A DNA stretch of 64,000 nucleotides from Butyricimonas faecihominis (lineage in GTDB: Bacteria > Bacteroidota > Bacteroidia > Bacteroidales > Marinifilaceae): assembly GCF_033096445.1 (NCBI RefSeq), contig NZ_AP028155.1, forward strand, positions 2,113,880 through 2,177,879. The letters run 5' to 3'. Of the stretch, positions 38,993 to 54,600 are shown in pieces. Below the pieces are notes generated by a model that saw only the letters and a list, made by a program, of their open reading frames with translations, was not told the origin of the DNA and did no database searches. Positions within the stretch are counted from its first letter, which is position 1. Every line of letters starts with the position of its first letter. Position numbers and translations under genes: made by a program.

Positions 38993-39070
38993 CATTCTTG
39001 CGGAGACCTCTTCCCACACTCTAGCCGTAGACCGATCTCATGCCCAACAAAGTCTTATTAATTATTCGAT

Positions 39071-39198
39071 AAACTCCTCCGGCCTTCGGCCACCTCCTCT
39101 ATAAACAGAGGAGGAGTTGGTGATACTTCCCGAAAACAGGGAGTATTTCAACTCTCCCTCTGTTTATAGAGGGAGTACCCCGAAGGGGGGAGGGAGTT
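39071..39198. repeat. Cluster of palindromic (REP-like) repeats
   Basis: Three related hairpins in a row: CCTCCTCT/AGAGGAGG around ATAAAC (39093-39114), ATACTTCCC/GGGAGTAT around a short GAAAACA loop (39123-39146), and CTCCCTCT/AGAGGGAG around GTTTAT (39154-39175). The first and third are inverted relative to each other. It lies downstream of the PKD-like gene and may also end its transcript. Confidence 0.7.
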
Positions 39199-39221
39199 AA
39201 AAACAGAGCCACCTTCACTCG

Positions 39222-40832
39222 TTATCGCCGCTCACGATACACGACATCCTTTATTTTTGCAAAACCACTGTATTCCGCCCTTTTCGTCACACTATTATTC
39301 ACCCCATCCACCGGGTAGAACCCTAGCTTCCCACCATTGTTATCCGGGGCTGCCGTATTGTACGAACCCACCATCAACTCATACTGCCGAGCCATAAACT
39401 CGTCGGACTGGTTATTCAAATCATTCAATGAACATTGCCTGTACAAGTTAAATTTCAACATCGTAACCGTCTCGTTTTCCCCTAAAGCAATCGTATTCAT
39501 CGGGTAAGTCGTGTTTGTTCCTAAGTTATGCAAATACACCTTGTTCCCCACGGCATAAAACATATAAGGGAATAGAGAATGAAAAGCAAAAATCGTCGCC
39601 TTGTCAAAATCGGGTGCATTCAAATTCTCGTATTTCGCCTCCTGCACGAAACCGTTATTCGACATATTGATCCCGTAAATACAACGTTTCCCTTCGGCAT
39701 CCTGCAAAATAGAATATACCAAACCACCGGAATACCGGGTACTTTCCATGTACACCAATTCCATCCCCGTCTTGAAACTAAACAAACCGTCTTCCGTGTC
39801 TGCAACCGGGGTCAAAATCTGCATGGCATCAGCGACATAACCATACTTCCAGCCCACGAAACGTTTATTATCCGTGTCATACAGTAAAGCCGCACGTCCA
39901 TTTCCCGGACGAGCCATACTTACTCCCACGTAAGGAGCCACCTTATATTCCGGAGTCTTTCCCCTTTCCGACGTGTTGATCGGATATTCAAAAGCGGGAC
40001 CAGAATAATCCCTCACCTGTGCATAAGCGTTTCCGGCATCCGTCACGCAGAGATTAGCTAAAGCACCAGCTATACTTGTACCATTTACCGCCGTGTAATA
40101 CACGACATATTCATTTACCGGAGGAATGATAAAATCAACATTACCAATTTCTAAAGACTCATCCGTTTTAAACGTTTCCCGATCCAGCATATACGTTCCC
40201 TCTGCCGACATCACGTAAATCAAATCGGCAGGATTCGCATATCGATTAGGATAAAACCCAATTCCCTTGGCATGTTTCAACTCCGGTAATCCTAGTGAAG
40301 TCAACAAATCATAAGCCGGAATCACCCGTTCTGCCGAGATCACCGAAATCATATCCATCCGAACACGCTCTTCCTCCCCTTCATCACAAAGCACCATCCA
40401 TCCCTCATACGTCGGAGAAGACACTTTAATATCAAATGTCTTAGACGTCTGAACACCAGAACGCTTGTCCGTCACGGAGAACCATGCAATATACGTGTCT
40501 GCCGCAAAAGCTGCCAACGTGTCCAAATCCAATGAGCCCGAAGGATTCAGATCGACCCAGTGTTGCCCGGATACCAATACGCCACCTAACTTCTTCTCGA
40601 TCTTGTAACTAAATTCAAAATTAGCATTCTCCTTACCGATCTCTCCCTCTAGCGAAGAAACGACTTTCGGGTTCACAACAATATGGTCGGAATTTCCCAA
40701 CACCTCCACCACTTCGGGAATGTTCTCAATGGTTATTTCCGCCACCTCGTGATAGTCGTAATTCCCCTTATCGTCAAAACAACTACAAAAGGAAAAAACA
40801 AACAAAAACAGTATAATAGGATTTATTCTCAT
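39222..40832 (-). CDS. PKD-like family lipoprotein
   Basis: 536 residues with lipobox FSFCSC then FDDKGNYDYHEV. The N-terminal PKD-like beta-sandwich region has VVNPKVVSSLEGE and SYKIEKKLGG; the rest is beta-rich with propeller-like segments (IGFYPNRYANPADLIYVMS; KATIFAFHSLFPYMFYAVGNKVYLHN). This family regularly follows SusC, SusD and DUF4843 genes in Bacteroidetes and is presumed to be surface exposed and to bind ligand. Last gene of this operon. Function not established. Confidence 0.85.
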   Translation of the reverse strand: MRINPIILFLFVFSFCSCFDDKGNYDYHEVAEITIENIPEVVEVLGNSDHIVVNPKVVSSLEGEIGKENANFEFSYKIEKKLGGVLVSGQHWVDLNPSGSLDLDTLAAFAADTYIAWFSVTDKRSGVQTSKTFDIKVSSPTYEGWMVLCDEGEEERVRMDMISVISAERVIPAYDLLTSLGLPELKHAKGIGFYPNRYANPADLIYVMSAEGTYMLDRETFKTDESLEIGNVDFIIPPVNEYVVYYTAVNGTSIAGALANLCVTDAGNAYAQVRDYSGPAFEYPINTSERGKTPEYKVAPYVGVSMARPGNGRAALLYDTDNKRFVGWKYGYVADAMQILTPVADTEDGLFSFKTGMELVYMESTRYSGGLVYSILQDAEGKRCIYGINMSNNGFVQEAKYENLNAPDFDKATIFAFHSLFPYMFYAVGNKVYLHNLGTNTTYPMNTIALGENETVTMLKFNLYRQCSLNDLNNQSDEFMARQYELMVGSYNTAAPDNNGGKLGFYPVDGVNNSVTKRAEYSGFAKIKDVVYRERR

Positions 40833-40850
40833 AACCTTATGTTTTTAATA

Positions 40851-41684
40851 TTATTCATACCGGGAATAGTCAACCGAGTAAGAAGGAGCAAGTTGCATAT
40901 AACTTCCGTCCGAATCCAATTCCGGAGTTCCGGCATCTGCCTGTTCCTGTAAATATTTCTGTACCGTAGTAGTAAAAAAATTGAATCGTCCATACTGAAT
41001 TTTCGCTCCGGCATACCCGGCGTTATCCCAATCTGCAGCACTCAACCCGCAAACAGAATTAACAACAAGAAATTTTTTCGGAGTCCAATTCCCAAAGAAA
41101 CCATCCCCGAACATGGACCAATACCACGGCTCTGTGTACATCTCACTTAATGAAAAAACAAACTCATCCCCGTGAATCATCACCCCCGTGGCCGAATAAG
41201 CATTCGTATTCTTATACTCCGGGAAATAACATTTGAAATACTCGTTATCCTCCAGACGAATTGCCAGACGCACCGCTTTCTCCATCATATCATCCGTACG
41301 AAAGAAACGGACACGCACGTAAGCCGTACTTTTTCCCGCAGGTACAACTACCGTATCCAAATTCACTTCGTAATGTTTCCCCTCGATAGCTGTCGTACCC
41401 TCTTGATCCACCACCACTTTAAAAGGGCGATCGTAATCAACCACCTTCCCCATCGTCCGAATTGTCGCGGAAAGCACCACACTCTTCACCGAGGCCTTGG
41501 CAGAGGCGAATGAATAAGCCACCGAATCCCCGTAATATTCCGTGGTACTATTATAAATATAACTGGTCACCCGTTGAAAATAAATTCCGCTATCATCCGT
41601 AGTAAAGACCGAAATATCTTGCTTTTCACAAGCACAGAAAACAAGCGTCAAGCTTGAAACAAACAATATAATTTTCCATTTCAT
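40851..41684 (-). CDS. DUF4843-family lipoprotein
   Basis: 277 residues with lipobox VFCAC then EKQDISVFTTDDSGIYF, the characteristic start of DUF4843 proteins. The remainder is beta-rich (VVDYDRPFKVVVDQEGTTAIEGKHYEV; VPAGKSTAYVRVRFFRT). It lies 18 bp upstream of the PKD-like gene and 11 bp after susD. Presumed accessory surface lipoprotein of the uptake complex. Confidence 0.87.
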   Translation of the reverse strand: MKWKIILFVSSLTLVFCACEKQDISVFTTDDSGIYFQRVTSYIYNSTTEYYGDSVAYSFASAKASVKSVVLSATIRTMGKVVDYDRPFKVVVDQEGTTAIEGKHYEVNLDTVVVPAGKSTAYVRVRFFRTDDMMEKAVRLAIRLEDNEYFKCYFPEYKNTNAYSATGVMIHGDEFVFSLSEMYTEPWYWSMFGDGFFGNWTPKKFLVVNSVCGLSAADWDNAGYAGAKIQYGRFNFFTTTVQKYLQEQADAGTPELDSDGSYMQLAPSYSVDYSRYE

Positions 41685-41695
41685 AATCTTACAAT

Positions 41696-43171
41696 TTAAC
41701 GATTATCAACTTCTCCGGAAGGCAAGGGTAACACGTAACGTTCTTCCTTAGCTCCATACGTATTGGTATCATACCCATTCTCGTCACTGTTAATATTAAT
41801 ATACAGCCGTTTGTACATGAAAAATATCTGTCCCTCTCCGATAAACTCCCGCAAATATTCCGAACGCAAGCGTTTCATGAAATCATCCTCCGAAACAACC
41901 GTCAATTCGGGTAATCCTCTACGGGTACGCATCTGGTTCAGCCATCCATACCGATCTGACAACACGGGTTCACATTCTGCCGCAATATAATACACCTCGC
42001 TCAACCGAATCAACGACATGAAGACTGCATAGAAATATTCCGATTCCTTTGTTCCGCTAGGCTTATCTATCCCCTTGTATTTGATCAAAGAATGCCCGCT
42101 CTCCCCCACGCCGGAAGCAACTTGCCACCACGTTTGGAAACGGTAATCCTGTGTCTCTCCTGCGAAAAGACTCGTCCCCACGAAATCTTTTCTAGGGTGC
42201 AAGTAATTATTCCCCGCTTGCTCGGCACTGAAATAATTTGTATAAATGTCCACCCGGTCTTTTTTGTAAATCCCGGTCAACACTTCAGTGGAGAACACCC
42301 GGTCGGGATTACTTTGGTTTGCCAACAACTTATTCGGGTCCACCGCCGGGAAATGTTCATTCACTTTCGAGTCCGCCAACAGTTTCCGAGCCGCAACCAA
42401 TGCGTTCGCTTGTTCCCCCACGTACAAGTACACTCTAGCCTTCAACGCCAACACGGCATAATAATTCATTCGTAACTGGCGATAACGTAGATACACCTCC
42501 TCGTCTTTTTCAAGAGAAGCCATCGGTCCATTCTCTATTACCGGGTCACTATCCGCCAGTAACTCCTCTGCCTCATCCAAATCCCGCAAAATCTTTTCAT
42601 GCAGCACGGAATCTGCCGTCATCAACGGTAAAGCAACCACTTTCGACGATTCATTATAAGGAATAGCCTCCGCCTCCGGATGCAATTTATAGACCGGACC
42701 AAATAACCGCAACATATCAAAATGCAGGAAAGCACGTACCGCCAACATCTCCCCTTTCAACACCCGATACTCCTGTTCCTGTAACACACCCTCACTCTCG
42801 TCAATATTCTCCAACACCACGTTACAATTCAAAATCGTGTTGTAAGCCGTGGTCCATGTACTTTCCAACGTTTTTTTCACGTTCTCGTCCGTGTAAGCAA
42901 AGGTACTCAACGCTGTCAAGTACGTGTTCACCGGAAGAGGCTGGTAACGTTTCGAGATCACGTCCACCAGCTCGTAGGAAAGATTCTTCCCGTAAAGAGC
43001 CGGGGATGCCATCTTGTTATATATCCCGTTCACCGCGGTATAAAAACCGCCTCTCGTGGCGAATAATTGTTTCTCCGATTGCTTGTCTTTCGGCTGCACG
43101 TCCAGAAAACTCGAACACCCTACACCACACACGAGTACAACCCCGATCCAAATGATATTCCATAATTTCAT
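41696..43171 (-). CDS. SusD/RagB-family outer-membrane lipoprotein
   Basis: 491 residues from the ATG at 43171 (MKLWNII); an in-frame ATG lies two codons upstream. Lipobox CGVGC then SSFLDVQPKDKQSE is typical. The helical region has AVRAFLHFDMLRLFGPVY and ALKARVYLYVGEQANALVAA. C-terminal EYLREFIGEGQIFFMYKRL replaces the usual RRxEL...RWFDLRR, as in other DUF4843-linked SusD proteins. Partner of the SusC at 43184. Confidence 0.93.
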   Translation of the reverse strand: MKLWNIIWIGVVLVCGVGCSSFLDVQPKDKQSEKQLFATRGGFYTAVNGIYNKMASPALYGKNLSYELVDVISKRYQPLPVNTYLTALSTFAYTDENVKKTLESTWTTAYNTILNCNVVLENIDESEGVLQEQEYRVLKGEMLAVRAFLHFDMLRLFGPVYKLHPEAEAIPYNESSKVVALPLMTADSVLHEKILRDLDEAEELLADSDPVIENGPMASLEKDEEVYLRYRQLRMNYYAVLALKARVYLYVGEQANALVAARKLLADSKVNEHFPAVDPNKLLANQSNPDRVFSTEVLTGIYKKDRVDIYTNYFSAEQAGNNYLHPRKDFVGTSLFAGETQDYRFQTWWQVASGVGESGHSLIKYKGIDKPSGTKESEYFYAVFMSLIRLSEVYYIAAECEPVLSDRYGWLNQMRTRRGLPELTVVSEDDFMKRLRSEYLREFIGEGQIFFMYKRLYININSDENGYDTNTYGAKEERYVLPLPSGEVDNR

Positions 43172-43183
43172 AACCATTCATCT

Positions 43184-46100
43184 TTAAAAATTAAACGAAA
43201 GTCCTGCCTCCATACTCCGGGCAAAAGGATAGGCAATTCCTCGCTCGGACCGGATGGTCGATGCCCGGAACACGTCACGCATGGATGCTTGAATCTTCAA
43301 ACTACTTAACCCTAATTTTTTGATCCATCCGTCATAGAACTCGTATCCCACGTAGATAGATTCCAAGGTCAACACGTTCTCTTCCTGCACGAAACGGGAA
43401 GACATCGGGGTCGTCTCCGCACTGGCAATATCCTTGAAATGCACGATGTCCCCCACTTCCTGCCAACGCTCGTACAACGCCCGCTTGTCCTGATTCTTGT
43501 TCAGATCATTTCTCGAAATATTTTCCACCTTGTTATAAAGAACCTCGTTGAACACGTCAGCCCCCATCTGGTAACGGAAATTCAAGCTCACGGAAAATCC
43601 CTTCCAATTGAGCGATGAACCAATCACGCCCTCCACGTCCGGGCGGGTATTCCCGCAAATCACCTCGTCATCATACGAGAAATCGTACGTGTAACTCCCG
43701 TCCTTGGCATAAAACAACTCCTTCCCGTTCGAGGGATCAATCCCCGCGGACCTTACCGCCCAAATATCATCCGGGTCGGCCCCGTCATAATACCTCACCG
43801 TGTTTTCACCCTTTCCACTGGCATTCAGAGAGGAAAGCTTGTTCCCGATCTTGTCAATCCGGGTTTTCTGCGTCCGCACGTTCGCCCGTACCATCCACGA
43901 GAAGCGTTTCTCGAAATCTTGGAAAATAAAATAGGACACCGATGCCGTCAACCCTTGTGACACCTGTTCTCCCGCGTTCGTCATGTAAGTGGATGTCCCG
44001 GAAGAAAGCGGTGTACTCACCTTGATCAACAACGGGTCGGTCACCTTGTAATAGTAATCTGCCGTCAACGAAAAGCGTTTATTAAACAACGTCACGTCGA
44101 GACCGATATTCTTATCCACCGTGATCTGCCATTCCAAATCGGGGTTTCCGATCTGCGACAATTCCGCCCCGATCCCGAAGTAGTTCATGGAACCAAACTG
44201 GAACGAGTAAGTCAACAAGGATTGCGCGGAGTCAAAACTCTGGTTCCCCGGATTTCCAATAGAGGCCCGCAGTTTCAATATATTAATCCATGCCACGTGA
44301 TCCATGATAAACTTCTCCTTGTGCAAGTTCCAGCCCAACCCGACCGACCACGTCGTATTGTATCTCCGGGAAGTACCGAAAACCGATGAACCGCTCGTCC
44401 GCAGGCTGAAATCCATCAAGTAACGATCGTCAAAAGAATACCCCGCGTTGAAATAACCGTTCACGGAACGGGAAACCGACTCGTAGTATGCAGGAGTCCC
44501 GTATTCCGGGTAGCCGTTCGAAAAAGAGGGGTAAGAAAAATCTCCGTCCGGGAATCCTACCGCAGAATACCCCTGCGTAAGCGATTTATTGCTGGAAATA
44601 TTTCCCCCGGCAACCAAGTTAATCCTGTGTTTTCCCAGTACTTTCGCGTACGTGACACTTAACTCCGCCTCAACTTGATTTGTTCGGACGTTATTTGAAT
44701 GAAACTCTCCCTTTTTAGTAGTTTCCACGTTCTCATATCGGGTATCATTCCGGGAATAGAACTTCTCCGTGTCATCATTCCCGTAAGTCAATCCCAACCG
44801 GGCACGTACCCGCCATTCCGTCGTGGGGAAATATTCCGCCATGAAATAATTGTTCAACAAGAGATTACTTCCCTTATCCCGACTATTTTGGCTCGCGTTC
44901 CACAGCGGGTTCGAAGCTTTGAAGTAATCATTATATTCCAACCATTTATCCACCGTTCCCTCGTCATTATACTTTTTGTAATAAGGATTCGCCGCAGCAT
45001 ACGCGCTGAATGCCACGATCGGGTTCTTGAAATGAGTTGAGGTCAACGAGAATTTGTTAGAGAACTGGAATTTCGACATCCGGTAAATCAAGTCGATATT
45101 GCCACTGATCACATCCCGCTCCGACTTTTCCATCACCCCGGAAATCCCGTTGTATCCCGCTCCCAAGCCGAACAGGAAATTCCCCTCGCCTCCCTGCACG
45201 TAGAGTGAATGTTTCTGGTTCACTCCTACCCGTAAAGGTTCAGCCAACCAGTACGTGTTTACACCACTCTCGATTTTCTTCAATTTCTCGTTATACAAAC
45301 GGGTTAATTCCACCTCGTTCGTCGTGGACCAATTCACCGGATCATACCTCCCTGCCAATAATTCAAATTCCAGCTTTTCCCTTGAATTCATCAAGTTATA
45401 ACTCGACAAATCGGGCATCGAGAGATTCATGTTTCCGGTATAACTTACCTGCAATTTCCCGGCCTCCGGTTTCACCGTTTCCACCACGATCACCCCGTTA
45501 GCCGCCTTCGAACCGTAAATGGCCGTCGACGCCGCGTCTTTCAAGATCGTGATCGAGGCCACCCGGTTTATATCCAAATCATTAATCGCTGCCAACGTTG
45601 ACTCAAACCCATCAAGGATAAACAACGGCTGGTTCGGGTCGGCATCTAGCTCGTCCCGTAAACCTAACATACTCGACTTTCCCCGGATTTCCATGTTCGG
45701 CAAACGGTTCGGGTCCGACCCGAACTGGTTATCCTCGATAATGGCGAAAGCCGGGTCCAGCGTCTTCAAACTTTGCAGCACGTTCTGCGTACCCATCGTT
45801 TTCAACTCGGCAGCCGAGTAAGTGGATGCCGATCCCGTGAAACTTTCCTTCTTACGCGTGAAGATACCCGTCACCACCACGTCTTCCAGTTTCACGTCCT
45901 CTTCCCGCAACACGATCGTCAACTCCTTCTGTTCCACGCCCGCTTTCAACCGGGGAATCCTCACGTCCTCCGTCTTCATCCCGATAAAGGAAACGACTAG
46001 CGTGGCCGTGTCAGCCGGGATCAATAACTTGAACTTCCCATCTACATCAGTGGCTGTTCCCATTGATGTTCCTCCCAGACGTACCGAAACTCCCGGAATG

Positions 46101-46294
46101 GGCTGCTTTTTCTCGTCTATCACCTTTCCCCTCACTTCCCGGTTTGCCACACGAGTGGAATCCACCGTCCCGGCCCTCGTCAATAGCGGAAAGCCCAACA
46201 ATAAAATCATAAATAACCGGATTGTCACGGTTACCGTACTTCGATCCGACAGTAACTTTCGCTTAAAAACTTTCCTGTCATAAGTTTTTTTCAT
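43184..46294 (-). CDS. SusC/RagA-family TonB-dependent transporter without STN domain
   Basis: 1036 residues: signal peptide (to about residue 42), a carboxypeptidase-regulatory-like domain at about 50-135 (VRGKVIDEKKQPIPGVSV), plug (MEIRGKSSMLGL; GSKAANGVIVVET) and a barrel ending AFARSMEAGLSFNF. There is no STN domain and no sigma/FecR pair nearby, so control must differ from the 12666 and 33384 transporters. Its operon carries SusD, DUF4843 and PKD-like genes. Substrate unknown. Confidence 0.95.
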   Translation of the reverse strand: MKKTYDRKVFKRKLLSDRSTVTVTIRLFMILLLGFPLLTRAGTVDSTRVANREVRGKVIDEKKQPIPGVSVRLGGTSMGTATDVDGKFKLLIPADTATLVVSFIGMKTEDVRIPRLKAGVEQKELTIVLREEDVKLEDVVVTGIFTRKKESFTGSASTYSAAELKTMGTQNVLQSLKTLDPAFAIIEDNQFGSDPNRLPNMEIRGKSSMLGLRDELDADPNQPLFILDGFESTLAAINDLDINRVASITILKDAASTAIYGSKAANGVIVVETVKPEAGKLQVSYTGNMNLSMPDLSSYNLMNSREKLEFELLAGRYDPVNWSTTNEVELTRLYNEKLKKIESGVNTYWLAEPLRVGVNQKHSLYVQGGEGNFLFGLGAGYNGISGVMEKSERDVISGNIDLIYRMSKFQFSNKFSLTSTHFKNPIVAFSAYAAANPYYKKYNDEGTVDKWLEYNDYFKASNPLWNASQNSRDKGSNLLLNNYFMAEYFPTTEWRVRARLGLTYGNDDTEKFYSRNDTRYENVETTKKGEFHSNNVRTNQVEAELSVTYAKVLGKHRINLVAGGNISSNKSLTQGYSAVGFPDGDFSYPSFSNGYPEYGTPAYYESVSRSVNGYFNAGYSFDDRYLMDFSLRTSGSSVFGTSRRYNTTWSVGLGWNLHKEKFIMDHVAWINILKLRASIGNPGNQSFDSAQSLLTYSFQFGSMNYFGIGAELSQIGNPDLEWQITVDKNIGLDVTLFNKRFSLTADYYYKVTDPLLIKVSTPLSSGTSTYMTNAGEQVSQGLTASVSYFIFQDFEKRFSWMVRANVRTQKTRIDKIGNKLSSLNASGKGENTVRYYDGADPDDIWAVRSAGIDPSNGKELFYAKDGSYTYDFSYDDEVICGNTRPDVEGVIGSSLNWKGFSVSLNFRYQMGADVFNEVLYNKVENISRNDLNKNQDKRALYERWQEVGDIVHFKDIASAETTPMSSRFVQEENVLTLESIYVGYEFYDGWIKKLGLSSLKIQASMRDVFRASTIRSERGIAYPFARSMEAGLSFNF

Positions 46295-46334
46295 AACTTT
46301 GATTGTTAATTAATTGATAAAATTGATTTACACA

Positions 46335-46373
46335 AGGGGGTGATATTCAACGTTTCTCAGGCATAGAATACAC
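46335..46373 (-). promoter_or_regulatory. Leader stem-loop ahead of susC (43184)
   Basis: On the minus strand GGGGTGTATTC pairs with GAATATCACCCC (one bulge) about 40 nt upstream of the susC ATG, preceded by an A/T-rich run. Position and layout resemble the leader hairpins at 6305 and 16461. Confidence 0.45.
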
Positions 46374-46561
46374 CCCTCTTTTATTTTTCAGTTGCTTTGC
46401 GCACCGTGTTTCATGTTCATTATTCCATTTTATTCTTTTCTTTTAACCAAAACTACAACCACTCCACTCTATTGTGTCATGCCAATTATGGCATAACAAA
46501 CTACCTCCTTGTCATTCAAAACAAAGATTCTATAAAAACTGATGAAGAAATACAAAGATCT

Positions 46562-46591
46562 GAACATTCCCGGCTCACAACACGAATGTTC
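46562..46591 (-). promoter_or_regulatory. Hairpin in the long susC leader
   Basis: GAACATTC (46562-46569) and GAATGTTC (46584-46591) are perfect 8-bp arms with a 14-nt loop, inside the roughly 390-nt leader expected from the promoter at 46694. Short ORFs in this stretch look spurious. Confidence 0.35.
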
Positions 46592-46693
46592 GTCACGCCG
46601 ATCTCGTTACAAGCACATGATGATACCTTTATACCATCCCTTTAAGACTAAAAATCAAAAGAATTATCGAAGCCGAACTTCTCCCTTTACACG

Positions 46694-46725
46694 CAAAGAT
46701 ACAATTACGATTCCCTCCCATAAGC
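46694..46725 (-). promoter_or_regulatory. Promoter of the susC operon (43184)
   Basis: On the minus strand TTA, 19 bp, then TATCTTTG (46694-46701); the -7 box is exact and the -33 box is one off TTG. It implies a leader of about 390 nt containing two hairpins. Confidence 0.45.
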
Positions 46726-46747
46726 CTTTTTGTTTAAAGATTAGGAC

Positions 46748-46907
46748 GAAAAAAAACGGTTCCGTCTGTCCCGTTGCATAACACCACTCAACGGCTGTGG
46801 GTGCATTAACACTCCACACGGGGGTACGGAACCGCCGTATGGAGTTAACAGGCAAAAAAAATGCCTGCTACACTGTGGCAGGATTCCCCGCCGTTGAGTA
46901 TGTTATG
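46748..46907 (-). ncRNA. Candidate structured small RNA with its own promoter and terminator
   Basis: About 160 nt, transcribed leftward. Near-perfect closing helix: TGCATAACA + CTCAACGGC (46775-46795) with GCCGTTGAG + TGTTATGCA (46890-46909). Inside are a stem ACTCCATACGG/CCGTGTGGAGT (46811-46845) and a CAGGCA/TGCCTG hairpin across the T-run near 46852-46866. The apical loop sequence GGUUCCGU (46826-46833) is fully complementary to ACGGAACC in the 3' tail (46758-46765), allowing a pseudoknot. The 3' end is AACGG/CCGTT followed by U8 (46749-46756), a terminator-like end. The branched fold does not match 6S, SRP or tmRNA as far as can be judged by eye; the family is unidentified. Confidence 0.7.
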
Positions 46908-46912
46908 CATTG

Positions 46913-46942
46913 CAAATATATAAACATTTTTACAGAAAGCAA
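46913..46942 (-). promoter_or_regulatory. Promoter of the candidate ncRNA
   Basis: On the minus strand TTG (46940-46942), 19 bp, TATATTTG (46913-46920): an exact Bacteroidetes consensus match a few bases before the closing helix of the RNA. Confidence 0.7.
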
Positions 46943-47131
46943 ATATTTCTTTATTATTTTATAGTTGTAAATATTGCTGGATAGCAGATTTATCACTTGG
47001 ATTCAGCCTATTCCATGCTCCATTATTTCTTTCACCCTTTCAAGCCTATCACCAAGCAATAAAATAACCACCACTCTATTTGCTTCTTCTTTATCTTTTC
47101 TCTAATTTTACAACAAATATACTAGAACGAA

Positions 47132-47338
47132 ATGGAAGCAAGGAAGATTAAGCAGATCGAGATTACTAAATTATTTGGTTACAAAGATATAAAATGGACC
47201 TTAAATGATGATATTTAGGTTATTAGAAAACTTAATCCAAATGTTCAATTAATCATTGCTACCCATTCTCCATTTATCGCAATGAATGGCTGGCTAGATA
47301 AAATCACAAATATTTCTGACATAACTAATAACCAATGA
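47132..47338 (+). pseudogene. AAA-ATPase remnant (internally deleted)
   Basis: Reading from the ATG at 47132, 28 codons encode a typical start of an AAA_15/AAA_21-type ATPase (KIKQIEITKLFGYKDIKWTL). Then a TAG occurs, and in the same frame 39 codons follow that match the far C-terminus of the same family (NPNVQLIIATHSPFIAMN, the Walker B-distal switch region), ending at TGA 47336-47338. The central roughly 300 or more residues, including Walker A and B, are gone. Such ATPases are frequent in OLD-like, Septu-like and retron defence systems. It is converged on by the large helicase gene. Confidence 0.75.
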
Positions 47339-47389
47339 TCGAAAGTATTCATAGTAGGTTTGACAATAACAATAATACAATCTTCTCCC

Positions 47390-50300
47390 TTACTTAGAAA
47401 GTTTTCTCAAGATAAGTTCTGGAAGTATAATCTTGATTTCTTTATTCTCATCACATCTCCAATACACGATAAAATTGACCTTGATCGTTTTAAACATATA
47501 CCCTTTTTGTTGTAAAATTTTCAATTTTTTCCAAAAGTCTTTCGAGAATTTCAATACAGGTTGTTTCTGTCGAGTAAAACAAGTATCTCCCTCAAATACT
47601 AACTCATCGCCACTCGTTAAACCATCAATATATTGTTGTTTGTAAATAAAATACCCCAGCCAGACATCCGTATGCCCCAAATGTAAACATAACTCATCAG
47701 GTTCTCCATAATCATTACTATTCACAATTTTCTCAGCAATTTCCATATTTACATGATTCCAATACGACCAGTTCGAATGAATGTATAAATTTTGTTTTGC
47801 CCTAGTCATTGCCACGTAAAGCAATCTTTTTTCTTCATCAGAAGAAAAGGGGAACCCCTCCAAATGTAAAAAAACATTATCAAATTCCCGTCCTTTCGCT
47901 TTATGCATCGTTGACACAAAAATAGTTTCCCCATCTTGTTCCAAAAAATCTTCAAGTTTGGATTCTCTTATAAACAATTCTAAATCCGATTTATATCTAC
48001 CGGATTTATTTGTTTCTTCAAAATCTTTAAGAAGTCGATTAACGATTTCAATCTTAGAACTCTTCCCATACATTTTTTGCAATTCCAACTTGGCATACTT
48101 CCACTTCTCATCACTTATTTTAGGTGCATAAAATTCAGAATGAAATTGTCCCACAAAATACCTTATCTCTTGTAAATCGTACAAATTAAATTGATCATTA
48201 GACTGTATAAGTTTTGCACGCAAGCCTTTTCTCAACAACAATCCGGCAATCTGTGCCGCATCCTCATTCTTCTTCGTAAGCACGCAAGTTGTACCCATAA
48301 GTCCCGTACCATACACCTCTTCAACCAAGGGAACAATAAGATTATTGGTATTATTATAGTAGGTGATTTTTATTTTTCCGTTATCTCGTTGAACGGCAAC
48401 AATGGGTTCTTTCTTCAATCGACCTTGAATACATCTGACAAATTCATTCGAAAACAGTACCAAATTATTTTTACTCCGATAATTCTCTATCAATTCATAT
48501 TTAATGGCATCATTCTCCGTGATCAATTTTTCCAAATATTTAGAATCAGCATCCCTATCCCTGAATTCATAAATATTTTGATCATCATCGCCAACCGCAA
48601 TAACACGCATCTCTTCATTAAAACCCATCAATGCTTTCACCAAGGCAAATTCATCCTTGTCCATATCTTGGGCCTCATCAATCACCAAGACGGTCTTGGT
48701 GATCTTGCACAACTCGACCTCCCGACTACTGATTTTTTCGATTGCAACACGAATTATATTCTTGGATTTCTCCAAATCACCGACAAATCCCAATAAATCA
48801 AAGCAAAAAGAATGAAATGTCTTTATCTCTACAAAACTTGCAGCATTACCGATCAGTTTAATTAATCGTTTCTTAAACTCGGTTGCGGCAGCTCGAGAGA
48901 ATGTAAGCATTAATAATTGTTCGTGCTTTACATCCTCCATAAGGAGCAATGACGCTAATTTATGAACCAACACCCTCGTTTTTCCGCTCCCCGGACCAGC
49001 CGCAACAACAATATATTTAGATTTATTGTCCCTGATAATTTTTAATTGTTCAATGGATAGTTCTCCAAAAAGCTGCTGAAATTTAGACGGTGTAATATTC
49101 CTTGCCAACTCTTTCTGCCTGCTACTGCTAAAATATTTGTTTAAAAAAGAAGTATGATTTAAACGGAAATAATCATCCACGAATTGTAAAGCTTCCTTGT
49201 AACCACTAATCATCTTTTTCGCATACTCTCCGACAATATGGATCTGTTCTGTCTTATTTTTATAGAATTGATCGAGTTTCCCGTAATCATTACTCGTGTA
49301 CTGTTTATAATTATTCTTTTCTAATCTCTCAATAGTTAGCTTGTTATAAACGACCAAAAATCCACCTTCAATTTTAATTGCCTCTATACGAGAAAGATAA
49401 AACAAAGCATTTTCCACGTCAGCAAGTCCCACGTTCACCTTAAAAAGAGCTTGCTGTTTCTCGTACGCATTTTTCAGTTCAAGAACAGAGAACTCTATCA
49501 AGACCTCATCATTCGAGGATTCTAATATGATTTTTTTATTCTTCTCGTAAATATACTCCAAAATGAATTTTGCCAACTGTTGCCGCTTTTCCAACCACTC
49601 CTCGATCTTCTCTTTAGGCTGTTTAAGCGCCAAAACAACATGATTTTTAGAATAATTACTACTATCATATCGTTTTCGATTCAGCCACTTCTGTATATCC
49701 CAAAAATTAATAATCGTTTTTATTTTATCAAGAGTAACATTTTTATCCTGCCCCCCTGATATTCCTTCATTAAGTTCTTTTAAATTATACGTGTTTCCCT
49801 CTTCATTTAAAACCGATTGCAAGTAATTTTCTACTTTACAATATGTTTCAAGGATGGAAAGCGAGCGATTACATTTTTCTCCCTTTTTTATAAAAGCGGT
49901 AAGATCCTTTGCATCTGACAGTATTTGCTCTTCACGCATCAAGTTTATAATGTGAATCACGTCTTCCCGTGCAATGCCTAAATGATCGGAAATATAATCA
50001 ACCCGGGATTCCGCAATTTCATCGTTAGTATGCCTGCGACTTCTCGTCGAAAACAGTTTCTTTATGATCCGAGTTGCATATTCTTTTTGTTTATCATCGA
50101 AACGGAACGACTTTCTAATTTTCGTGATTGCCTCTTCCGCATTTCTCGTTAGAATACTATTTGCAAAAACCCGAGGCGTATTCTGACCTCGTTTCAAGTA
50201 CCCTGCTTCCTCAAGTGCCGCAATGGCAGATTTCACTCGCGTTTCTATTTCATTCAGATTATCATCCCAACCCGCTTTTCGGGCAATTTCTATTGCCGAA

Positions 50301-52201
50301 TTAGATATTTTTGACCTGAACCCAGTAAGATTTTTAATAGCCTTCCAGATTTGTTGAATCTCTTTCTGGTTCAATCGAGTCTGGTTAAGTAACGTGAAAT
50401 GCTTGTCCAAATCCTGTTCATTAAACAAGACATAACAATCAGCCGTTATGTTTTCATCCCTCCCTGCCCTTCCCGCTTCCTGTACGTAATTTTCAAGAGA
50501 GTCGGAAATCTCATAATGAATAACCATCCCCACATCCTTTTTGTCAACCCCCATTCCAAAGGCAGATGTAGCCACGATAATTCGAACTTCCCCTGCCATA
50601 AAAGCATCTTGATTTTCTTTTTTCTGCTTCACATCCATTTTCCCGTGGTACGCACGCGCATCAAATCCATCTTCTCGAAGTTGTTCCGCAAGCATTGCTG
50701 CCCTATGTGTTCTGGACGTGTACACGATGACCGGACAATCCTTAGATTCTAGCAGATTACGCAACACATTGTACTTTTCTTCGTCACTTCCATTATTATA
50801 AACTTCATAATGAAGGTTCGTCCTAGAGGTATTGGCAGCAAAAAGTTCAAGTTCCACCGAAAGCCTATCTTTGAAATACGCCTTTATATCTCCTATTACT
50901 TTTTGCTTTGCCGTGGCTGTAAAACACGAGATCGGTATGGGTTCATTAAGCTGTTTTTCCTCCTGTATCAATTTTATAAAGTCCGCGATATACATATAAT
51001 CCGGTCTAAAATCCTGTCCCCATACCGAAAAACAATGTGCTTCGTCAATCACAAACCGGGCGATTTTACGTCCAAGTAATAAACGTTCAATGGTTTTAGA
51101 ACGTAACGATTCCGGGGCAATGTATAATACACAAGCCGAACCATTTTCGACTCTTTCGATAGATTTAGCTCTTTCAATCGGATCTAATAAACCGTTAATT
51201 GTCACAGCGTCAGTAATACCACTTTTTTCAAGATTATCCACCTGGTCTTTCATCAACGACTGCAAGGGCGAAATCACAATCGTAAGCGCCTTCATATTCT
51301 CTCCAGCCATGAGTGCCGGCACTTGAAACGTCAGAGACTTTCCTCCACCAGTTGGAAATATTGCCAATATTGATTTATTGGTAACGGCAGCTTTCACGGC
51401 ATTTTCCTGCAAAGCCTCTTCCGCATATTTCCTATACGAGTCAAAATTAAAATAACGCTTTAATGCCACATGGATGTCCAGTGAACGCCTGCAATAAGAA
51501 CAGCCCGTTAAACAAGGATTACCTCGTAACAAATGCATGACGTTCTCCACCCCTGGATAGTTTTTAAGCACCCAACGTGGTGTTATTGAATAACGGTTTC
51601 GAGCGTGTATCAAAGCAAGACAATAAGCAAGTTCTACCGGATACTGATGTACAAAACACTCAAAATCAGCCTTATCACAAACTTCTCCATTGAATTTTTG
51701 CCTAATTAAAGTTTCTACCTTCAAAGAGCTTGCAGAATAATCCATGTACCGAAAGAAAGCGGAAAATTCTTCTATATCACTTAAAAGCAGATAATAAATT
51801 TGTTTCAATTCTTCATCCAGTTGCCTAAATGCATTTTCCTCATCATGAAACAATCGCTTTGCTTTTTGAGAATCATTAAGAGGGTTGTTATAATTTTCCG
51901 GATCAAGTTTATCATCTTTAACAAGATTGTGGTATGGTTGAGCAGGAAATAATAAAGGTGAAAAATAAAGTGTATCCACTCTATTGAAACTGTTTATTTC
52001 CGGCATCACTTTTTCCATATATTTCAAATCATGCTTGAATATATTATGCCCACATACATATCCCGTTCCATCTAAGAAATCCAAAAAATCTCTGATAGAA
52101 GTAGAATGAAATGTCTCTCCATTGCTTTTTATACCCCCTATATCAGCAATACCGTGACTATTAGCATCTATCTCAAGATCAAAAAAAGTGATGGATTTCA
52201 T
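47390..52201 (-). CDS. DEDD exonuclease - RecQ helicase - UvrD/Rep helicase fusion
   Basis: 1603 residues, three enzymes in one chain. Residues 1-150: DnaQ-like exonuclease with Asp8/Glu10 (FFDLE), GHNIFKHD (Asp58) and NPLND (Asp110). Cysteines 230, 234 and 237 form a small zinc-like knuckle. Residues 265-640: SF2 RecQ core with Walker A PTGGGKS 283-289, DEAH 386-389, FTATA 427-431, SAFGMGVDKKDV near 546 and QEAGRAGRD 574-582. Residues 640-1040 are helical, with winged-helix-like segments. Residues 1045-1480: SF1 UvrD core with AGPGSGKT 1068-1075, DEAQD 1175-1179, GDDDQNIYEFRD 1204-1215 and LLYVAMTRAKQNLYI 1460-1474. All motifs look intact, so DNA unwinding plus degradation is expected. DUF262 gene upstream on the same strand. 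Possible defence or repair role. Confidence 0.9.
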   Translation of the reverse strand: MKSITFFDLEIDANSHGIADIGGIKSNGETFHSTSIRDFLDFLDGTGYVCGHNIFKHDLKYMEKVMPEINSFNRVDTLYFSPLLFPAQPYHNLVKDDKLDPENYNNPLNDSQKAKRLFHDEENAFRQLDEELKQIYYLLLSDIEEFSAFFRYMDYSASSLKVETLIRQKFNGEVCDKADFECFVHQYPVELAYCLALIHARNRYSITPRWVLKNYPGVENVMHLLRGNPCLTGCSYCRRSLDIHVALKRYFNFDSYRKYAEEALQENAVKAAVTNKSILAIFPTGGGKSLTFQVPALMAGENMKALTIVISPLQSLMKDQVDNLEKSGITDAVTINGLLDPIERAKSIERVENGSACVLYIAPESLRSKTIERLLLGRKIARFVIDEAHCFSVWGQDFRPDYMYIADFIKLIQEEKQLNEPIPISCFTATAKQKVIGDIKAYFKDRLSVELELFAANTSRTNLHYEVYNNGSDEEKYNVLRNLLESKDCPVIVYTSRTHRAAMLAEQLREDGFDARAYHGKMDVKQKKENQDAFMAGEVRIIVATSAFGMGVDKKDVGMVIHYEISDSLENYVQEAGRAGRDENITADCYVLFNEQDLDKHFTLLNQTRLNQKEIQQIWKAIKNLTGFRSKISNSAIEIARKAGWDDNLNEIETRVKSAIAALEEAGYLKRGQNTPRVFANSILTRNAEEAITKIRKSFRFDDKQKEYATRIIKKLFSTRSRRHTNDEIAESRVDYISDHLGIAREDVIHIINLMREEQILSDAKDLTAFIKKGEKCNRSLSILETYCKVENYLQSVLNEEGNTYNLKELNEGISGGQDKNVTLDKIKTIINFWDIQKWLNRKRYDSSNYSKNHVVLALKQPKEKIEEWLEKRQQLAKFILEYIYEKNKKIILESSNDEVLIEFSVLELKNAYEKQQALFKVNVGLADVENALFYLSRIEAIKIEGGFLVVYNKLTIERLEKNNYKQYTSNDYGKLDQFYKNKTEQIHIVGEYAKKMISGYKEALQFVDDYFRLNHTSFLNKYFSSSRQKELARNITPSKFQQLFGELSIEQLKIIRDNKSKYIVVAAGPGSGKTRVLVHKLASLLLMEDVKHEQLLMLTFSRAAATEFKKRLIKLIGNAASFVEIKTFHSFCFDLLGFVGDLEKSKNIIRVAIEKISSREVELCKITKTVLVIDEAQDMDKDEFALVKALMGFNEEMRVIAVGDDDQNIYEFRDRDADSKYLEKLITENDAIKYELIENYRSKNNLVLFSNEFVRCIQGRLKKEPIVAVQRDNGKIKITYYNNTNNLIVPLVEEVYGTGLMGTTCVLTKKNEDAAQIAGLLLRKGLRAKLIQSNDQFNLYDLQEIRYFVGQFHSEFYAPKISDEKWKYAKLELQKMYGKSSKIEIVNRLLKDFEETNKSGRYKSDLELFIRESKLEDFLEQDGETIFVSTMHKAKGREFDNVFLHLEGFPFSSDEEKRLLYVAMTRAKQNLYIHSNWSYWNHVNMEIAEKIVNSNDYGEPDELCLHLGHTDVWLGYFIYKQQYIDGLTSGDELVFEGDTCFTRQKQPVLKFSKDFWKKLKILQQKGYMFKTIKVNFIVYWRCDENKEIKIILPELILRKLSK

Positions 52202-52263
52202 AAGTTACATTTACCTACATTTCTATTCAAAAAATATCTCTATCAATCCACAATGATCATTTA

Positions 52264-52271
52264 CAAATATA
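52264..52271 (-). promoter_or_regulatory. Possible promoter -7 box of the helicase fusion gene
   Basis: TATATTTG on the minus strand, about 60 bp upstream of the ATG, within the 117-bp gap after the DUF262 gene. No TTG at proper spacing. It suggests the fusion gene can be transcribed separately. Confidence 0.35.
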
Positions 52272-52318
52272 TTAAAATATATCACATTATTTTCCATAAA
52301 ACAAAGCATCGAGATTAC

Positions 52319-54064
52319 TTATAAAGTGCTAAACGCATCTTTCACCGTTTGAGCCATTAAACTCCTACGCTGTCTCAAAAACTCGAAGTAATTCATACGC
52401 TCCCAACCATCGGGTAAAGCATGCCAATAATACTGTTGCTTTTGTTGTTCCGGGGTTAATCGACTTAAATATTTAGGCAGATACTCGGCCGGGGCTGTAT
52501 CTGCTATTTTTATATTATCGCTCCATTCAACTAACGCATAATTCGCTATCTGATTGGTTTGCTGTTGCTCGGTAATGCCAATACTTATCAAATATGCTTT
52601 CGGAAATAAATGATGTATTTCAAGAGGTGACTTTTTAAATCTTAAACCTTCCTGCAACAAATCATGAACTTTCATTTTTGAAAACAACCCATCCGCATTC
52701 AATATATTTAAAGAAGCATAGTAGGCATACATAGAAGGACTTATCGCAGATGAAGTAGCTAAATTGTTCGGCAAAGTAATATTCCAAAAATCATCTGTAA
52801 ACTTCGTGTTTATAATATTTAAAAGAATATTTTTAAATTGTTCTGCAGAATAAACACCTCGCAATTGAGACAAGTCAAACTCCATCTGGGATTCAGGAGA
52901 TCCGGTATATCGTCCAGTTATGATACACATAAAAAACCATTGAGAAATGAGTTTCCGCAATTCAAACATATCCATCTTATACTCTTCCCGACCAATTAGG
53001 AACATCGTATAAACATAGATAATCGTCGTTTTCGAACTTATAATATCACCTTTTATGTATCCAGCTTGTTTGATACATTTCAAATATTCATGCCAATTGG
53101 TAACATCAAGAACCTTTTTATTAGCTTCTTTCAGTAATTCAAATTGTTTCTCCCTTCGTTCCTCACTAAAAGTACCTGTTTCTAAATCTTTTCCCCGAAG
53201 AATACTATATACATATTTCAATACAGCCCTCTTAAAGCATAATCCAACTGACACTCGCAACATTTGATCCGGACTAGGAGTTATGATATAATTAAACGCA
53301 GAAGCCGCCTGCAGGTTGGGAGTACGAGTTTCATGACAGAATCGTTCTAAATCGGTTCTTCCTTCATCCCAAAAAACAGACATCAGTGTCAATATAAAAT
53401 CAGCTTGATTCAAAGTTTTACCCTGGCTATTGATCCGCACGAAAATATCAGAAACTTCTTCTTCCGAAATATTCGCAGACAATTCCAAAGCCGAGAAAGA
53501 ATAATGTTCTAAATTTTTTACATTTTGAATCGTTTCCCATATTTTAGCTTTTTCATCTTCTGTTAAAGCACGAGAAGCCTCTAAATTTTTTATAAAATCC
53601 CCGATAAAAATATGCGCTTTAAAATCCGGTTGCCATAATTTTGAAATATCTTGCACATACTCGGGACTTCGTCGTGAAGCTGCATCAGGAATCTCAAATT
53701 TTTCTTCTAAAGGTTTAAATGAAATTATAATATGTTCTTTATTAAAATTTTCTCGAATCACCTCTTTTCCTTTCATCACAGCAAAAATTGATGTCAATCG
53801 CTGCTGCCCATCCACTATTAATAAATTTGGAATTTTCTGTTTCCCTCCCACACCTATATATTTACTATTATCAACATTTGCATTTGCCCATAACAATAAA
53901 TAACCGACAGGATACCCTTTATACATCGAATCAAAAAGATCTCTCACTTTAATATCTTTCCATACAAAAGGACGTTGTATGTCAGGAAGTCCAATAATTC
54001 CCATATCTATATCGTTCACAAGAGCTTGTAACTTATAGTTTACTTCACGAAAAAGAGTTGCCAT
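52319..54064 (-). CDS. DUF262/DUF1524-type (GmrSD-like) protein
   Basis: 581 residues. The N-terminal ParB/sulfiredoxin-like DUF262 domain (about 10-230) has LPDIQRPFVWKDIKVRDLFDSMYKGYPVG and the nucleotide-handling motif DGQQR (85-89), then VRINSQGKTLNQADF. The middle is helical. The C-terminal segment has an HNH/DUF1524-like pattern: EIHHLFPKAY (His484/His485), then NQIANYALVEWSDNIKI. This matches the GmrSD type IV restriction architecture, in which DUF262 hydrolyses nucleotide and DUF1524 cuts DNA; substrate specificity cannot be told. It lies 117 bp upstream of the exonuclease-helicase fusion on the same strand. Confidence 0.88.
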   Translation of the reverse strand: MATLFREVNYKLQALVNDIDMGIIGLPDIQRPFVWKDIKVRDLFDSMYKGYPVGYLLLWANANVDNSKYIGVGGKQKIPNLLIVDGQQRLTSIFAVMKGKEVIRENFNKEHIIISFKPLEEKFEIPDAASRRSPEYVQDISKLWQPDFKAHIFIGDFIKNLEASRALTEDEKAKIWETIQNVKNLEHYSFSALELSANISEEEVSDIFVRINSQGKTLNQADFILTLMSVFWDEGRTDLERFCHETRTPNLQAASAFNYIITPSPDQMLRVSVGLCFKRAVLKYVYSILRGKDLETGTFSEERREKQFELLKEANKKVLDVTNWHEYLKCIKQAGYIKGDIISSKTTIIYVYTMFLIGREEYKMDMFELRKLISQWFFMCIITGRYTGSPESQMEFDLSQLRGVYSAEQFKNILLNIINTKFTDDFWNITLPNNLATSSAISPSMYAYYASLNILNADGLFSKMKVHDLLQEGLRFKKSPLEIHHLFPKAYLISIGITEQQQTNQIANYALVEWSDNIKIADTAPAEYLPKYLSRLTPEQQKQQYYWHALPDGWERMNYFEFLRQRRSLMAQTVKDAFSTL

Positions 54065-54294
54065 ACCTTCGAATATTACAATTTACCAATCCTCATTTTT
54101 TACACACACAACAAATATCCCCTCTACAAATACGAAACGCTCGAACTAATTATACAAACTTAATAAATAAAACAAATATGTTAGCCTTTTTACAAAAAAA
54201 ATAATATTTCAATTGAAAGCCATCATGTTCACCTTTCAATTTGTCCCTCAACTTGGGAGACTATTCATAAAATTTCTTAATATATAGATTCTAA
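54065..54294. other. AT-rich spacer
   Basis: No gene or clear promoter; very AT-rich, as often seen at the edge of accessory segments. Confidence 0.4.
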
Positions 54295-54528
54295 TCTCCA
54301 AACTGTATATTAAGAAAAAACATCCAGAAAAACAGAACGCTTCAGCAACAAATAATTGATGCGATACAATCAAATCCAACTATCACAAGAAAGGAATTGA
54401 TCTATCTATTAAACAGTACCGAGAGAAGTGTAAAGTACCACTTATCTCAACTAATCAAAAAAGGAAGAATTAAAAGAGAAGGTTCTGATCGAACCGGCAC
54501 ATGGAGCGTGATTGAATATTTGGACTAA
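54295..54528 (+). pseudogene. 3' stub of a winged-helix (AlbA_2/RecG-like) regulator
   Basis: An open frame without a start codon, ending at TAA 54526-54528, encodes IIDAIQSNPTITRKELIYLL, ERSVKYHLSQLIKKGRIKRE and GSDRTGTWSVIEYLD. This is the C-terminal winged-helix tail common in AlbA_2-domain (Schlafen-like) DNA-binding proteins. The N-terminal several hundred residues are absent, so the gene was truncated, plausibly when the neighbouring DNA was exchanged. Confidence 0.65.
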
Positions 54529-54600
54529 AAAGCTACAATTAAAATTTAGTTTTCTCTCCTAATTCAAACCTCCCGAAGTGTTCTTTTGAGATTTATACCC

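Follow-up and report, generated by a model that had tools for sequence, protein, structure and literature searches.

A probable immune gene of Butyricimonas faecihominis that joins an exonuclease-like domain with RecQ and UvrD helicase cores in one chain

Within the window, that is the whole 64,000-nucleotide stretch of Butyricimonas faecihominis DNA analysed here, one gene on the minus strand encodes a protein of 1603 amino acids in which an exonuclease-like domain, a RecQ helicase core and a UvrD helicase core follow each other. Since its occurrence is scattered and it lies at a site where relatives carry anti-virus genes, this fusion is probably an immune gene that has so far escaped description, as judged from genomics alone. 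We hold with moderate confidence that it acts as a horizontally spread, stand-alone helicase-nuclease directed against phages or plasmids. Genomics speaks fairly strongly for defence, while the polarity of the motors, their substrate and the nuclease activity are what we infer from the domains. The sequence-only reading of this DNA had already proposed that the three parts belong to one chain, and the frame proved to be single and intact: it starts with ATG, has no internal stops, and all domains were located in it as follows.

47390..52201, minus strand: whole gene of the exonuclease-RecQ-UvrD fusion, 1603 aa (open frame and Pfam/NCBIfam profiles)
51797..52201, minus strand: DEDD-type exonuclease-like domain, residues 1-135 (D8, E10, D58 and D110 conserved; N105 at the position of the catalytic His)
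51491..51679, minus strand: four-cysteine site C175, C230, C234, C237 (conservation; probable Zn or Fe-S)
50348..51466, minus strand: RecQ SF2 helicase core, residues 246-618 (Pfam/NCBIfam and structure matches)
49082..50320, minus strand: helix-rich middle region, residues 628-1040 (predicted secondary structure)
47759..49069, minus strand: UvrD/Rep-type SF1A helicase core, residues about 1045-1481 (Pfam and structure matches)
47393..47758, minus strand: strand-rich C-terminal extension, residues 1482-1603 (predicted secondary structure)

Both motors were recognised by profiles and by structure. Residues 246-618 scored 267.8 bits with TIGR00614 (cut-off 219.8), and the UvrD core gave Pfam scores of 104 and 95 bits. 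Two AlphaFold models, for which 54 and 53 members of the family were used, reached mean pLDDT of 86.3 and 84.5; their best structural matches were 1oyy for RecQ (Z 27.4, 346 residues, rmsd 2.5) and 2is1 for UvrD (Z 33.9, 432 residues, rmsd 4.5). The fusion has the RecQ motifs, including the DEAH box with an aromatic-rich loop (DEAHCFSVWGQDFRPDY). In the family alignment of 104 members, one of which (L142) has no N-terminus, the checked RecQ motif residues were invariant with the exception of a single E387K row, and those of the UvrD motor were invariant or nearly so. From its predicted secondary structure the middle region between the cores would consist of tandem winged helices, and the C-terminal extension had no Pfam matches at E 0.1. 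The profile check suggested by the sequence-only reading was thus passed by the RecQ and UvrD cores but not by the exonuclease domain, for which Pfam gave nothing relevant in the window protein.

Assignment of the gene to known helicases was tried and rejected in several cases. As a housekeeping RecQ orthologue it falls far below the cut-off of the TIGR01389 equivalog (303.6 against 640.2 bits), and canonical recQ is present as a separate gene in the same genome. The cut-offs for orthologues of PcrA, UvrD and Rep are 911, 1144 and 951 bits; the protein scores 124.6, 113.7 and 92.3, respectively. Patchy distribution beside a canonical recQ present in all 59 relatives also speaks against both kinds of housekeeping orthologue. 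Filing under DpdF, PsyrT or GajB, to which PADLOC gave E-values down to 2.9e-96, was rejected because the best stretches span one motor each.

RecQ and UvrD belong to different superfamilies, both known as 3'-5' motors. The suggestion of two opposite helicase families is therefore right about the superfamilies but not about the direction: both motors are predicted to run 3'-5', without the opposite polarity of the RecB/RecD type.

The N-terminal domain needs more caution. Among 21 homologues Pfam found only scattered weak matches, with DNA_pol_B_exo1 in four of them. When the family profile was compared with exonucleases of the PDB, the best rows had whole-chain E-values of 0.001-0.006, single stretches being weaker; chains named exodeoxyribonuclease III and PolC-type polymerase III came first, followed by DnaQ and DEDDh. 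Strands and helices of this region are predicted in an order that agrees with an RNase H-like fold. When five related DEDDh proteins of sibling genomes were used in a profile-profile comparison, the domain went undetected (probability 0.4 percent, with a template Neff of 1.5); this failure counts against the assignment, but we weigh it lightly. In fold searches with the model of residues 1-630, RecQ chains took up the listed rows, and no exonuclease appeared among them. By sequence, the exonuclease assignment is weak.

Conservation adds to this picture. Rows with an N-terminal region have D8, E10 and D58 without exception (103 of 103), and D110 in all but one (102 of 103). The third motif of DEDDh enzymes is H-x4-D, where the His is catalytic. 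In alignment with chain 9l8b this His coincides with N105, a position occupied by N in 97, S in five and K in one of the 103 rows, and by His or Tyr in none. The earlier statement that all motifs are intact holds, therefore, for the helicase motifs and for the acidic quartet, but not for the His/Tyr position of the exonuclease. Asparagine in place of the general base suggests a nuclease that is slow or gated, or one that uses the invariant H91. H91 and K95, both present in 103 of 103 rows, lie in a block with a mean pLDDT of 52; this neighbouring, putatively flexible loop may complete or gate the active site.

The cysteine knuckle noticed earlier between the exonuclease and RecQ is real and larger than claimed, as C175 joins C230, C234 and C237. 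Each of the four is cysteine in 102 or 103 of the 104 rows, and they are mostly lost together: one of the four is left in the row of Aliarcobacter (L015), and none in that of Nostoc (L016). Such joint loss argues for one metal site, which probably holds Zn or Fe-S.

The N-terminal profile retrieved at least 95 homologous loci from collections of genomes and viruses, as a sample rather than a census. At 80 of the 95 listed loci, L142 included, a homologous frame of 1463-1763 aa lies open and clear of the contig edge, a recurrence beyond chance; the remaining 15 copies are truncated at the edge, partial or broken. The family occurs in six named phyla. Named hosts in the genome collection include Bacteroidota, Bacillota, Spirochaetota and a deltaproteobacterium; other Pseudomonadota, Cyanobacteriota and Campylobacterota come in through plasmid records. 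At a smaller scale the gene is accessory and patchy. Counting its own genome each time, it was found in five of 56 genomes of the same taxonomic family, one of six of the genus and 15 of 395 in the phylum sample. Canonical recQ is present in 59 of 59 relatives, in 58 of them over the cut-off.

Several features point to horizontal transfer. In genomes of other classes (G089, G346 and G212) identity over the exonuclease region amounts to 55-57%, about as much as in one genome of the same family (G037, 55%) and more than in three other same-family matches (41-45%). On a quick tree of 104 rows the window protein and that of G037 fall in one starred clade, which also encloses the deltaproteobacterial row L059, and the three other same-family rows fall in another. 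Bacillota rows require five label changes on this tree, at least three of them by starred branches. Phylum labels are nevertheless far more clustered than shuffled ones (five changes against a mean of 14.7), which implies that transfer between phyla was limited; what the tree can prove is restricted by the quick method, by long branches (L015, L016) and by metagenome bins. In the window, GC content is 36.8% for the fusion gene and 34.7% for the neighbouring DUF262 gene, against a mean of 43.0% (sd 3.6) for 33 other genes, only one of which is lower, at 33.3%.

The genes adjoining the fusion in the window encode a GmrSD_N (DUF262) protein and a TonB-dependent receptor. Comparison with genomes of the same genus showed that the fusion and the DUF262 gene lie in a block of variable content, with these features:

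46947..54549, no strand: variable block, replaced by other DNA in the same-genus genome G009 and, with slightly different edges, in G006 and G008 (flank comparison)
52319..54064, minus strand: GmrSD_N (DUF262) protein of 581 aa with DGQQR and HHLFPK stretches (Pfam)
54313..54519, plus strand: C-terminal remnant of an AlbA_2-type gene (69 residues at 43 percent identity to the AlbA_2 protein of G007)

In G009 a gap of 3.4 kb, which holds an AbiEi/AbiEii pair, separates the flank with the alcohol dehydrogenase gene (from window position 54550 up) from that with the TonB receptor (from 46946 down). The same flanks in G006 are separated by 3.0 kb with another AbiEi/AbiEii pair between them. In G008 the distance is 10.4 kb, and it is filled by a Dcm/Vsr cluster of C5 methylase, Vsr and GHKL ATPase together with an AbiE-like pair, the latter identified by near identity to the scanned pair of G009; an AbiH protein follows beyond the dehydrogenase gene. 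In G007 the same dehydrogenase gene has an AlbA_2/HATPase protein upstream and, on its other side, a Mokosh-like helicase; the best receptor-operon match of this genome is on another contig. For G010, inspection by eye of the near side of the dehydrogenase gene gave no recognised defence gene. The AlbA_2 remnant has the same orientation to the dehydrogenase gene as the intact gene of G007, and it represents what is left of a previous occupant. A frame fragment resembling the C-terminus of an ATPase (LIIATHSPFIAMNG), found just downstream of the fusion gene at window positions 47219-47335, is perhaps the remnant of another. The receptor operon with its leader, as far as the edge of the variable block (window 39222-46946), has a second copy, 86% identical, at another place of the genome (G000:C1:4693389-4701100), so that a match of the receptor flank alone is insufficient as proof of the same site; in G009, G006 and G008 this flank adjoins the dehydrogenase gene.

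The DUF262 gene, which is GmrSD-like, raises the question of whether it forms, together with the fusion, a two-gene restriction system. The two genes are on the same strand, 117 bp apart and both inside the variable block. Nevertheless, a BLAST search with the DUF262 protein at E 1e-4 gave no relative in the 1345 genes called at 103 other loci, and the PADLOC models Orf5 and HEC-06, which the DUF262 protein matches weakly, each match one sampled neighbour, giving at most a remote relative. Such a joint system is very improbable, and we regard the DUF262 gene as a neighbour at the site, not as a conserved partner.

The absence of a fixed partner is general. Across 99 loci no recurrent partner gene was found, the largest neighbour cluster spanning seven of them, and the adjacent gene shares its strand with the fusion in 57 of 99 cases upstream and 54 of 99 downstream, which is near one half. 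Two loci showed a RecQ-like gene nearby: one of about 680 aa is directly upstream of the fusion on the same strand at a distance of 5 bp (L127:7953-9995), and another is just downstream of a broken fusion gene (L122).

The neighbourhoods were also surveyed for defence genes. Among 144 sampled neighbours from 85 loci 95 PADLOC models gave matches at E 1e-20, this tally counting models rather than distinct proteins. Among the 25 listed of these 95 are restriction enzymes of types IV and II, methylases, Dsr2 and AbiEii, as well as a RecQ-like protein (DpdF/PsyrT models) and candidate systems. As a control, 114 neighbours of canonical recQ from 20 genomes, all relatives of the window's genome and so not taxon-matched, gave one model, mad3, in three proteins; the same model matches two of the 144 neighbours of the fusion gene. 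The survey thus favours defence by 95 models to one, but the control differs in taxa, and Pfam found many metabolic genes among the same 144 neighbours, which means that a dense defence island is not present everywhere. The sequence-only reading had named consistent housekeeping synteny with no defence enrichment as the observation that would speak against a defence role; this was looked for and not seen. Its general direction is supported by the patchy spread, by transfer, by the variable site with defence genes in siblings and by the excess of defence models over the recQ control.

The same observations bear on the alternative that the protein is an accessory enzyme of DNA repair or recombination: a bacterial exonuclease-RecQ of WRN-like type, extended by a UvrD motor, which would help to restart forks or process ends and was transferred without being immune. 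Domains typical of repair enzymes and the stand-alone character of the gene, with no recurrent toxin or partner, agree with it. However, the fusion is absent from most relatives, all of which have their canonical recQ, its site exchanges defence genes, and its loci share no synteny. Taken together this makes the repair role rather unlikely.

Mobile elements carry the gene as well. Copies were found on plasmids of Bacteroides, Aliarcobacter, Nostoc, Thiothrix, Rhizobium, Sulfitobacter and Cereibacter, and one of the plasmid copies is beside parA/parB partition genes. A plasmid search with the whole protein gave 553 records; among the 20 listed of them six cover at least 80 percent of it in one place. 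Fifteen fusion loci come from IMG/VR, and at 11 of them 98 neighbours were scanned: integrase models matched six, ParB-like models three and a terminase model one. In the 25 listed model tallies for these viral-collection neighbours integrases, methylases, helicases and ParB-like proteins come first. By their gene content these loci would be integrative elements or plasmids more than typical phages, with prophages possible at single loci. Partition genes, integrases and ParB-like neighbours would suit a maintenance factor of plasmids or integrative elements, serving replication, copy number or competition between elements; the copy in the window and several others lie, however, on contigs of 1-5 Mb, and the gene has no constant neighbour, so that we consider this role improbable. 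A phage-encoded or anti-host protein is hardly credible: to the presence in IMG/VR contigs and the single terminase match one can oppose the model tallies just given and 50,697 phage records, in which two exonuclease-region queries found no match at E 1e-5.

Defence by a stand-alone helicase-nuclease, the reading we prefer, invites comparison with known systems. Gabija, Hachiman, Druantia III and PsyrTA/RqlHI resemble the fusion most in kind, and WRN does so in domain order. WRN is a human RecQ helicase with an N-terminal DEDDy exonuclease, the exonuclease preceding RecQ. The fusion has the same order, and its RecQ core aligns to 6yhr (Z 24.6). Unlike WRN, it is bacterial and mobile, has neither Tyr nor His in the third exonuclease motif, and includes the four-cysteine site between the domains and the UvrD motor. 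With Gabija it shares the UvrD-like SF1A motor, as GajB profile and PDB matches show, but GajB is a separate subunit beside GajA, while here the motor is in one chain with RecQ. No recurrent partner comparable to GajA of the OLD family was found in the 99 loci, the neighbours in the window being the GmrSD_N gene and that of the TonB-dependent receptor.

RecBCD, AddAB and AdnAB combine two motors with a nuclease, as the fusion is predicted to do, and the UvrD core of the fusion aligns to AddA, RecB and AdnB. The fusion differs from them in being a single chain, in having RecQ instead of a second SF1 motor and, by its predicted domains, a DEDD-type instead of a RecB-type nuclease, and its motors share their predicted polarity, unlike RecB and RecD. 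A general Pfam scan at E 0.1 gave 14 families, none of them a RecB-type PD-(D/E)XK nuclease. The RecBCD-like mechanism suggested from sequence is thus weakly supported: the two motors are there, but they have the same predicted polarity, the exonuclease site is altered, and a RecB-type Pfam match was not obtained.

The accessory setting and a RecQ-like core bring the fusion near PsyrTA/RqlHI, although the PADLOC match to PsyrT extends over residues 246-631 only. Toxicity of RqlH is reported to come from its PRTase domain and to be held by the partner RqlI (PMC4670107). The Pfam scan of the fusion protein at E 0.1 has no PRTase family, and no RqlI-like partner was seen, which separates the fusion from RqlHI. 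Hachiman and Druantia III are reported to couple a helicase that senses the state of DNA to a nuclease (PMC12278908, PMC13192584). By its predicted domains the fusion would be of this helicase-nuclease kind; the two systems use other helicase proteins and more than one subunit, while the fusion is one polypeptide with two motors. A survey of the open-access literature, with most subscription papers outside its scope, brought up no paper that we recognised as dealing with the exonuclease-RecQ-UvrD triple fusion.

One can imagine the following course of events. The RecQ core and the winged-helix-like middle would load on junctions of single-stranded and duplex DNA in replicating, recombining or incoming molecules. 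The duplex would then be opened by the RecQ and UvrD motors, both predicted to move 3'-5', and the exposed 3' strand may be bound and trimmed by the N-terminal DEDD-type domain, as the exonuclease-RecQ order of WRN suggests, with the four-cysteine site fixing the exonuclease to the RecQ core. In its boldest form, which we put forward only tentatively, the protein would be a single-polypeptide immune machine of its own class, spread over at least six phyla. In its WRN-like exonuclease-RecQ head the nuclease, without the customary general base, would be completed or gated by the invariant loop residue H91 and the four-cysteine metal site would lock it to the helicase; a second motor, of SF1A type, would drive the head through the winged-helix middle, the whole acting alone against replicating or incoming foreign DNA. 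If true, helicase-nuclease immunity would gain a chain that holds RecQ together with UvrD, and a natural DEDD-type domain without the catalytic His would offer a test of nuclease gating.

Further defence genes of this genus may be sought at the variable site next to the alcohol dehydrogenase gene. At L206:4529-9091 a C5 methylase and Vsr have beside them a GHKL/HEF_HK ATPase and a companion of 550 aa that matches no PADLOC model, and these may possibly represent an undescribed defence or restriction-modification accessory cluster. Farther along the window, positions 39066-39204 are occupied by an intergenic element of about 130 bp, which has at least 40 copies in the genome, itself included (of 109 candidates 40 were scored, and the other 39 copies are 85-96% identical). 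Many copies have weaker matches on the reverse strand, as in an imperfect palindrome, and many copies are found in G009 too.
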